42,970 bases of DNA from an uncultured Bacilli bacterium. GTDB taxonomy: Bacteria > Bacillota_I > Bacilli_A > RF39 > UBA660. The DNA lies in the NCBI GenBank assembly GCA_947628065.1, contig CANQYK010000004.1:1-42970 (forward strand), in the 5' to 3' direction. Positions 13,237 to 17,800 of the stretch are shown piece after piece (the stretch's first letter is position 1; each line of letters starts with the position of its first letter). Both the position numbers and the translations under genes were made by a program. The notes under the pieces were generated by a model, which saw only the letters and a program-made list of their open reading frames with translations, was not told the DNA's origin and did no database searches.

Positions 13237-13576
13237 TATTTTTGGCAAGTGCTAGGGATACCTAGAGGAAAGTCCATGCTCACACTGTCTGTGATGATAG
13301 TAGTGTTCGTGCTTAGGGAAAAAATAACCTAAGGTCGAGTATTCGAACGGCATAAAATATATCTAAAGAGAAATCCATGGTATATTTTTATAACGTGCCA
13401 CAGTGACGATGTTTTCGGAAACGAAAAAGTGAAACGCGGTAAACCCCACGAGTGAGAAACCCAAATTATGGTAGGGGAGCTTCCATAATGGAATAAGAAC
13501 AAAATGGAAGACTAGAAATAGTAGATAGATACTTGCCACCTAGCAATAGGTACAGAACATGGCTTATAAAAATATT
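13235..13576 (+). ncRNA. rnpB: RNase P RNA
   Basis: This is the catalytic RNA that matures tRNA 5' ends. Conserved blocks are in order: AGAGGAAAGTCCATGCTC, AGTAGTGTTCGTGC, GTGCCACAGTGACGA, GAAACGCGGTAAACCCC, GTGAGAAACCCAAATT with GGTAGGGGA, and ACAGAACATGGCTTAT. These are the CR-I to CR-V landmarks of a Bacillus-like (B-type) RNase P. GGCAAGT near the 5' end pairs with ACTTGCC near 3'. Terminal helix P1 can form from nine perfect pairs, 13235-13243 with 13568-13576, which defines the ends. The 5' strand of P1 overlaps the gpsB stop codon. Confidence 0.96.
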
Positions 13577-15924: not shown

Positions 15925-15953
15925 TTGAAAAACACCACAAAGTATTGTAATAT
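15925..15953 (+). promoter_or_regulatory. Promoter of the leader/variable surface gene
   Basis: TTGAAA (15925-15930), a 17-bp spacer and TAATAT (15948-15953) would start a transcript near 15960, leaving about 190 nt of leader before the 16154 gene. Confidence 0.55.
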
Positions 15954-16030
15954 GAATATAGGAAAGATAAAGAGTTATAGCAAATAATTTCCAAATTTTA
16001 GAAAAAAATAAGAGAAAGGTGTTGATTTTA

Positions 16031-16081
16031 ATGAGTATAAGTTTACCAAATGTAACCTGGGGGGGGGGTAAAACTATATAG
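16031..16081 (+). CDS. 16-codon leader ORF containing the poly-G tract
   Basis: AGAAAGGTG precedes ATG 16031, which opens MSISLPNVTWGGGKTI and a TAG at 16079-16081. The three glycines and part of the Trp codon are encoded by the G10 run. With one G fewer the frame would extend to a TAG at 16125-16127, inside the loop of the hairpin below. With one G more it would stop at once. It may be a regulatory leader peptide; nothing proves translation. Confidence 0.45.
   Translation: MSISLPNVTWGGGKTI
16059..16068. repeat. Homopolymer of ten G
   Basis: A run of ten G is very unlikely by chance in DNA of about 31% GC. Such runs are typical slipped-strand phase-variation sites. It lies about 86 bp before the surface protein ATG. 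Confidence 0.9.
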
Positions 16082-16115
16082 TAATCAAACATCTTTTCAT
16101 CGTGTAAGAAAGGAT

Positions 16116-16140
16116 AGAATAGGCTAGTTCTATTCTTTTT
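16116..16140 (+). terminator. Terminator-like hairpin (possible attenuator)
   Basis: AGAATAG (16116-16122) pairs with CTATTCT (16130-16136), followed at once by more T residues. The ribosome binding site of the next gene (AGGTGA) starts directly after the T run, so the hairpin lies inside that gene's leader. Confidence 0.6.
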
Positions 16141-16153
16141 AGGTGAAGAAAAG

Positions 16154-17800
16154 ATGAGAAAATTATTTCGAGCAAGTATATCAAAAGTCTATATAGCATA
16201 TTTACTCCTACTTACGACATTTGTAATAGGAACGTATTCTTCTTATGCTTATTTTACAGTAAACAAAGAAAAGAAAAATGCAATTAAAATGGTAACTGGA
16301 AACTTAATAGGAGAGTTAAAAGTAGATGATGTGGTATCGGATAAGTTAGTAGTAAATGCAAGTGAAACAAAAACATTTAAAGTAGAACTATATAATAAGA
16401 ATAATAGGAAAGCAAGATTTAATTTTTATTATAAAGGAAGTTTACCTAATAATGTAGAAGCAGGATATGTAATGGAAGATGGAATGAATAATATGCCCAA
16501 AGAAACAGGAGTAAATCTAACATCAAATGGAACACTAGGATACTTTGTAAGATTTCAAATAAAAGTAGTGAATAATACATCGAGCAGTGTAACCATTCCA
16601 CTAGGATATGAGGTAGGACTTGATTATAATGATTTATTTCTACCAAATAATTGTTATTTGTTTGAAGAAGCAAAAATAGAAACAAAACCAGCAGTAGAAA
16701 CACTACTTGCAGAATTTACGAATCCAGAAAGTACACAAGATTACAATTCAAACTATAATAAACAAGATAAAACAGCAAAAGAAAATAAAATGTATGTGTT
16801 TAATCATACAGCTGGGACTCAACAAAGTGGATGGACGCCTGATGAATTAAAAAGTTATCGATATATAGGAGCTGATCCAAATAATTATATACTATTTAAT
16901 GAAGAAATGTGGAGAATAATAGGAATAGAGACAGTAGATGATGGAACAGGAAAGAAAGAGAAAAGAATCAAACTGATAAGAGATGAACCATTAAATAGTT
17001 TGAGTAATCCAACTTTTATATCATGGGATAATAAGCCAAGTGGAACAGGGTCATCAAATAGTAATTATGGAAGTAGTTGGTGGGGAGATTCCAGACTAAT
17101 GATGGTATTAAATCCAGGATATGAAACAGATAGTTTGCTAATCAGTGGAACGAAAGGAAGTTTGTATTGGAACAGGCAAAGTGGGAAATGTCCATATAGT
17201 GGAAATAATGGAACAACAGATTGTGATTTTACAAGTACAGGATTAACCAGTACAGCCCAAGGAATGATAGGAGATACAAAGTGGTATTTAGGTGGATTAA
17301 ATTGGGAAGAGGCAAGTGTATCAGAGATATATCAAAAGGAAAGAGGAGAGACAGCATATGGAGTAAATGCAATCGCGAATACAACAAGAGGAATTAGTTG
17401 GACTGGAAAAGTTGGGTTAATGTATCCCTCTGATTATGGATATGCAACAAGTGGAGGAAGTAATATGAATCGAAATATTTGTATGACAACTGCAAATTAT
17501 GATGATTATGAAGTGTACGGTCCGTATAGTTGGGTGATAGATGAAATAACTGATGATTGCATAAGAGGAGATTGGTTATATAAACAAGAATATTATGATG
17601 AAGGATATTATGAATGGTTTATCGCCCCGTTTTCGGTCGACTCCGACTACGTGGTGAATCTCTACAGCGACGGGAGTCTCAACTACTCTGGGAGCTACGT
17701 CAACAGCCTGTTTGCGCGTCCAGTCGTATATCTAACATCAGATGTTAAGTATCAACAAGGTGATGGAAGTCAAAGTAATCCTTTTGTCTTTACAAAATAA
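16154..17800 (+). CDS. Secreted/anchored surface protein with variable-repeat-like C-terminus
   Basis: The 548-residue protein begins with a short basic stretch and a long hydrophobic segment (VYIAYLLLLTTFVIGTYSSY), a signal peptide or anchor reminiscent of SipW-type TasA-like proteins. Residues to about 165 look like a beta-rich TasA/CalY-like domain (ASETKTFKVELYNKNNRKAR). After a linker comes a second domain found in many gut Firmicute surface proteins (YIGADPNNYILFNEEMWRII, GKVGLMYPSDYGYATSGG, and RPVVYLTSDVKYQQGDGSQS at the end). Residues 489-523, just before this last motif, come from a GC-rich block with many NNC codons. The domain plan resembles C-type-lectin-like targets of diversity-generating retroelements. 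No sorting motif is seen. It stands alone, with its own promoter, leader and terminator. Function is not known; ligand binding or adhesion is inference. Confidence 0.85.
   Translation: MRKLFRASISKVYIAYLLLLTTFVIGTYSSYAYFTVNKEKKNAIKMVTGNLIGELKVDDVVSDKLVVNASETKTFKVELYNKNNRKARFNFYYKGSLPNNVEAGYVMEDGMNNMPKETGVNLTSNGTLGYFVRFQIKVVNNTSSSVTIPLGYEVGLDYNDLFLPNNCYLFEEAKIETKPAVETLLAEFTNPESTQDYNSNYNKQDKTAKENKMYVFNHTAGTQQSGWTPDELKSYRYIGADPNNYILFNEEMWRIIGIETVDDGTGKKEKRIKLIRDEPLNSLSNPTFISWDNKPSGTGSSNSNYGSSWWGDSRLMMVLNPGYETDSLLISGTKGSLYWNRQSGKCPYSGNNGTTDCDFTSTGLTSTAQGMIGDTKWYLGGLNWEEASVSEIYQKERGETAYGVNAIANTTRGISWTGKVGLMYPSDYGYATSGGSNMNRNICMTTANYDDYEVYGPYSWVIDEITDDCIRGDWLYKQEYYDEGYYEWFIAPFSVDSDYVVNLYSDGSLNYSGSYVNSLFARPVVYLTSDVKYQQGDGSQSNPFVFTK
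17618..17722 (+). other. GC-rich candidate DGR variable repeat
   Basis: Over 17621-17730 I count about 55% GC, against roughly a third in the rest of the gene. Codons switch from A/T-ending to mainly NNC (GAC, TCC, TAC, AGC, CTC, AAC). Many would become AAC if single bases were reverted to A, as expected of a diversity-generating retroelement repeat mutated at template adenines. The block ends just before the conserved ARPVVYL segment. No template repeat or reverse transcriptase occurs in the window. Confidence 0.55.

Follow-up and report, generated by a model that had tools for sequence, protein, structure and literature searches.

A poly-G tract in a leader reading frame as a probable phase-variable attenuator of surface protein genes in the genus of Candidatus Onthousia

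The stretch of DNA analysed here (the window, 42,970 nt) comes from an uncultured Bacilli bacterium and carries a gene for a 548-aa secreted or surface protein, which is preceded by a leader (table 1). A reading made from the sequence alone (the sequence-only reading) had described this leader as a promoter, a 16-codon ORF with ten consecutive G, and a hairpin directly before the Shine-Dalgarno (SD) sequence of the gene, and this layout was confirmed by direct reading. The leader ORF consists of 16 sense codons, with its own ribosome binding site and a simple repeat inside. Reading of the frames also confirmed that the ORF ends at 16081 with ten G, and at the TAG in the hairpin loop (16125-16127) with nine. 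The early stop claimed for eleven G was found as well, not within the tract as had been stated but directly after it. The surface gene starts 85 nt past the tract and has its own SD; the tract lies outside its coding frame, which rules out a poly-G switch that shifts the frame of the surface gene itself. Promoter-like sites upstream of the leaders in general were only mildly enriched. Elsewhere in the window lie a serine recombinase gene (226-1365, at the left end) and a class B RNase P RNA (13237-13571); the latter was the sole match of the whole window to the curated Rfam families, the leader having none.

Table 1. Features of the leader and the controlled gene in the window.
Feature	Position	Strand	Basis
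Putative sigma-70 promoter of the leader, TTGAAA-17-TAATAT	15925..15953	+	sequence; consensus scan 9/12
Leader SD, GAAAGGTG	16014..16021	+	sequence; conserved across leaders
Leader ORF, ATG at 16031, product MSISLPNVTWGGGKTI then stop; present G10 state, predicted OFF	16031..16081	+	
G10 tract, proposed slippage site	16059..16068	+	sequence
TAA reached with eleven G, predicted OFF	16069..16071	+	frame reading
TAG that ends the frame of the present G10 state, predicted OFF	16079..16081	+	frame reading
Spacer segment AATCAAACATCTTTTC with complementarity to the leader SD region; candidate long-range helix that would sequester the SD	16083..16098	+	fold and group comparison
Hairpin, arms 16107-16120 and 16127-16140, T5 run at end; putative intrinsic terminator	16107..16140	+	
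TAG in hairpin loop, where the long frame ends if the tract has nine G; predicted ON	16125..16127	+	
SD of controlled gene, AGGTG, directly 3' of terminator	16141..16145	+	sequence
Controlled gene, ATG at 16154, 548-aa secreted or surface protein with SYAYF-type signal region	16154..17800	+	

The 548-aa protein belongs to a large paralogous family (56 tblastn matches in its own genome). It had no match in Pfam or NCBIfam, and a few of its relatives match DUF6273, Big_2 or Listeria-Bacteroides repeats. The predicted structure (mean pLDDT 45.6) was set aside. In relatives, recA is directly followed by rny, so that the leader and its gene appear to have been added at the recA-rny interval in the lineage of the window.

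The window genome (1.55 Mb in 135 contigs) is AT-rich, and has 28 runs of at least nine G, nearly all of them ten long. About 25 of these show the same leader layout before genes for secreted or surface proteins, which is far beyond chance. An RNA model was built from 38 leaders; with just three base pairs it relies chiefly on sequence, and leaders that differ in sequence would escape it. Its matches number 31 in the window genome and, across the genus, 378 in 34 of the 35 genomes, where up to 36 dispersed loci occur per genome; it found no leader in 56 other genera of the same family. The layout of the window is thus not a single case, being shared by hundreds of diverged leaders. The genus contains Candidatus Onthousia, uncultured bacteria known from gut metagenomes, and leaders were found on contigs of named Onthousia species. 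In a genome of another family of the class (G053), G16 and G13 runs lie just after a -35-like TTGACT or TTGACA; such poly-G tracts, located in promoter spacers, would represent another type of phase variation.

The hairpin of the window folds at -13.4 kcal/mol, compared with -5.1 +/- 2.1 kcal/mol for shuffled sequences (z = -4.0). It was not called by a simple consensus terminator scan of the window, because its A/U-rich stem has too few G-C pairs. Across the leaders the hairpin covaries: 96% of cells were paired, against 49-75% in slid controls, one pair being C-G in 16 sequences and U-A in 14, and the covariation score was reached by none of 500 shuffles. Directly 3' of the 3' arm follows a nearly invariant U-run. 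The controlled gene is therefore preceded by a stem-loop with U-run, which is predicted to act as a terminator.

Exactly one of the three frames after the tract was open into the hairpin in 152 of 156 leaders. Among non-redundant leaders (spacers with less than 60% identity) this was the case for 29 of 30, compared with 13.7 (46%) expected from dinucleotide-shuffled spacers (p < 1e-5). The stop of the open frame was in the hairpin loop or the 5' arm in 140 of the 152, and the stops of the closed frames lay at least 19 nt upstream of the hairpin (median 31 nt), far enough for it to form. When more leaders were collected through the position of the model match instead of the G tract, 33 of 34 had one open frame, with all 33 stops in the 5' arm or loop. 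Of 134 leaders, 120 had a distance of 1 mod 3 between the leader ATG and the tract, with twelve lengths represented, a count that weighs less than independent cases would since the leaders are related; such a register, in which indels are mostly triplets, is what translation of the leader would lead one to expect. The sequence just before the tract (16042-16058 in the window; GTTTACAA-N3-GTTACCT in most leaders) was conserved even where the reading frame differs, and may therefore act as DNA or RNA.

The sequence-only reading had proposed that the frame decides whether the terminator is masked. Frame conservation, hairpin covariation, the triplet register of the leader and the tract-length alleles described below all support this mechanism at the level of sequence, and it is the best-supported account of the data. 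The leader is thus very probably a phase-variable, translation-dependent transcription attenuator. RNA polymerase would start at the leader promoter and a ribosome on the leader ORF. Strand slippage in the G tract when the DNA is replicated would determine which frame is read beyond it. In two of the three phases, translation would end shortly past the tract and no closer than 19 nt to the hairpin, so that hairpin and U-run could form and transcription would end (OFF). In the third phase the ribosome would read into the hairpin, stop in the loop and cover the stem, so that the polymerase could continue into the surface gene (ON). With dozens of copies per genome switching independently, a combinatorial surface repertoire would result.

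Some leaders depart from this arrangement. Two G10 leaders at one locus (L004, G000 contig 8, reverse strand, tracts at 380 and 1707) have no usual terminator, and a leader frame runs to a TAA that overlaps the start codon of the next gene (TAATATG). This is the present frame in one copy, while the other would need one G fewer; the switch may thus have a second output, by translational coupling. In four leaders of the window genome (L003, L009, L012 and L023) a different hairpin is followed by a second promoter-like site (TTGACA-17-TAAAAT) before the gene, which may therefore also have a tract-independent promoter.

Comparison of tract lengths among relatives, which had been proposed as a check, showed that they vary from 7 to 13 G, and that near-identical alleles differ. 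Four allele pairs, 98-99.7% identical over 600 nt (430 nt for one), differed in tract length: G9 (OFF) and G11 (ON) in L111 and L146, G8 (ON) and G7 (OFF) in L143 and L210, G9 (ON) and G11 (OFF) in L121 and L215, and G11 and G10 (both OFF) in L102 and L205. The predicted state thus switches in three of the four; the pairs were picked because they differ, and show that variation exists, not how frequent it is. As assembled, 21 leaders were ON, 79 would need one G fewer and 32 one G more; with a stricter choice of start (n = 123) these numbers were 12, 81 and 30. ON is therefore the minority state (about 10-18%), and most copies are one G above it. In the window genome nearly all tracts are G10 and no standard tract-bearing leader is in the ON phase, which weighs against assuming high mutability there.

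This predominance of one register (81 of 123 leaders exactly one G above the long frame), together with the near-uniform G10 of the window genome, would also fit programmed slippage, in which the DNA stays unchanged and either RNA polymerase or the translating ribosome loses register on the tract with constant frequency, giving a small share of long product and a low, steady read-through in every cell. A programmed signal should hold one register, however, whereas tract lengths range from 7 to 13, all three phases are present and near-identical alleles are found in different phases, and this explanation is considered unlikely.

It was also considered that decayed tracts lock the switch ON. This held for the tract-less leaders of the window genome, where six leaders (L221, L223, L226, L258, L260 and L363) have lost or broken tracts and a frame that runs into or through the hairpin, so that they are predicted to be locked ON. 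Across the genus most decayed leaders are OFF, and the idea was rejected; the lack of a consistent direction was counted against the attenuator reading.

The hairpin might act on translation instead, by hiding the SD or start codon of the surface gene until ribosomes in the long frame expose it; transcription termination would then play no part. Pairing of CATCTTTTC with GAAAAGATG at the gene start is indeed possible in the window, and the extended fold reaches -25.7 kcal/mol. In most relatives, however, the gene starts at least 20 nt beyond the hairpin and the SD lies outside it, and the near-invariance of the U-run after the 3' arm also argues against such translational attenuation, which appears decidedly improbable.

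Several leaders carry insertions between the tract and the usual hairpin. They were seen in L201 (4380-5050), L054 and L118, and in L201 a XerD-like integrase gene lies downstream. At this position L119, L121 and L215 contain a short insertion that resembles a remnant (TTATCCTTAAGCATAAAA). A mobile element may thus target the leader. These insertions, the large paralogous protein family and the apparent entry of leader and gene into the recA-rny interval would all be compatible with a leader that serves mainly as a DNA recombination site for the exchange of surface cassettes, as the pilE G4 of Neisseria, its frames being incidental. Such a site predicts neither one open frame into a covarying hairpin nor the triplet constraint on the leader, and as the main function it is very improbable, while a recombination role could coexist with the attenuator. 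An assembly or sequencing artefact is hardly credible: the named records are metagenome-assembled and homopolymer length calls can be off by one, so that single tract lengths are still open to re-reading, but the same tract context, frames and hairpin are present in numerous assemblies made by separate studies, and sequencing error would not conserve frames, which refutes an artefact for the architecture.

The attenuator may include a further element, as there is complementarity between the leader SD region and the spacer that precedes the hairpin, with GAAAGGTGTTGATT facing AATCAAACATCTTTTC in the fold of the window and GAAAGAAGGTAA facing TTACTTTCTTTC in relatives. RNAalifold gave only three pairs for the full leader, and the helix was therefore tested by duplex energies. 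Compared with shuffled spacers, the duplexes had a mean z of -3.2, and 52 of 68 were in the best 5%. Within two leader groups the pairing was strong (-13.6 and -13.5 kcal/mol), and it became weaker (-7.4 to -10.6 kcal/mol) when arms were swapped between them; a third group showed weak pairing and no preference for its own spacers. The helix is thus probable, being clear for two of the three leader types and weak for the third. It would close the leader once OFF-phase ribosomes have left, whereas ribosomes in the ON phase would keep it open. The broader picture, a genus-wide surface regulon of dozens of unlinked genes per genome, each with a poly-G phase-variable attenuator and a self-locking SD-spacer RNA switch that only long-frame ribosomes keep open, so that each copy is strongly bistable, is put forward tentatively, with somewhat less than even confidence.

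If the attenuator reading is true, a type of attenuation switch so far described for two pilus operons in a single species would be a main route of surface diversification in a gut genus. Gain or loss of a single G would decide between stop and read-through, and each cell could show a different, random set of surface proteins. Its copies in front of different genes would show the switch to be a portable module, and it would explain the many G runs in these AT-rich genomes. Since the DNA sequence suffices to predict from the frames whether a locus is ON or OFF, metagenomes could be used to read surface repertoires.

In leader-peptide attenuation of the E. coli trp operon, the position of the ribosome on a short leader ORF decides whether the terminator forms. 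The likeness to the leaders described here is that ribosome position would govern the terminator; the input differs, being a heritable frame here and the level of tRNA charging in trp, and no run of regulatory codons as in trp was seen in the leaders. In classic poly-G systems the tract shifts the frame of the gene itself or sits in its promoter, whereas the tract described here is part of a leader ORF distinct from the gene, and its effect would come about via the terminator. Long G homopolymers, surface functions and many loci per genome are shared with these classic systems of Campylobacter, Neisseria and Helicobacter (e.g. PMC6321876 and PMC3639595).

The closest parallel is pil1 and pil3 of Streptococcus gallolyticus (Danne et al. 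2014; PMC3894217), the sole find in a literature search for poly-G leader attenuators that covered few subscription papers. The remark in the sequence-only reading that no such layout had been described is amended accordingly, as these operons follow the same logic with a GCAGA pentamer. Their repeat tract lies inside a leader ORF, the short leader product stops 39 nt before a hairpin terminator, and an out-of-frame change in the repeats makes the product end within or after the hairpin. Slipped-strand mispairing was proposed for the switching, the controlled genes encode pilus surface proteins, and for pil1 the attenuator logic was shown experimentally (PMC3894217). Common to both systems are a repeat in the leader ORF, an early stop in one frame, another frame that reaches the hairpin, and surface proteins as the output. 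The repeat differs (22 copies of GCAGA in pil1 and 13 in pil3, a G homopolymer of 7-13 nt here), and as the leaders lack the GCAGA repeat they are treated as a variant that would work like the pil1 type, not as a member by descent. The scale differs as well: two pilus operons in S. gallolyticus, but here as many as 36 dispersed loci in a genome and a genus-wide total of 378. The leaders described here further differ in having one predicted ON phase out of three, an ON stop usually in the hairpin loop, and the probable SD-spacer helix. What is new is thus the homopolymer and the dispersed multi-gene regulon across a genus, and perhaps the SD-spacer helix.
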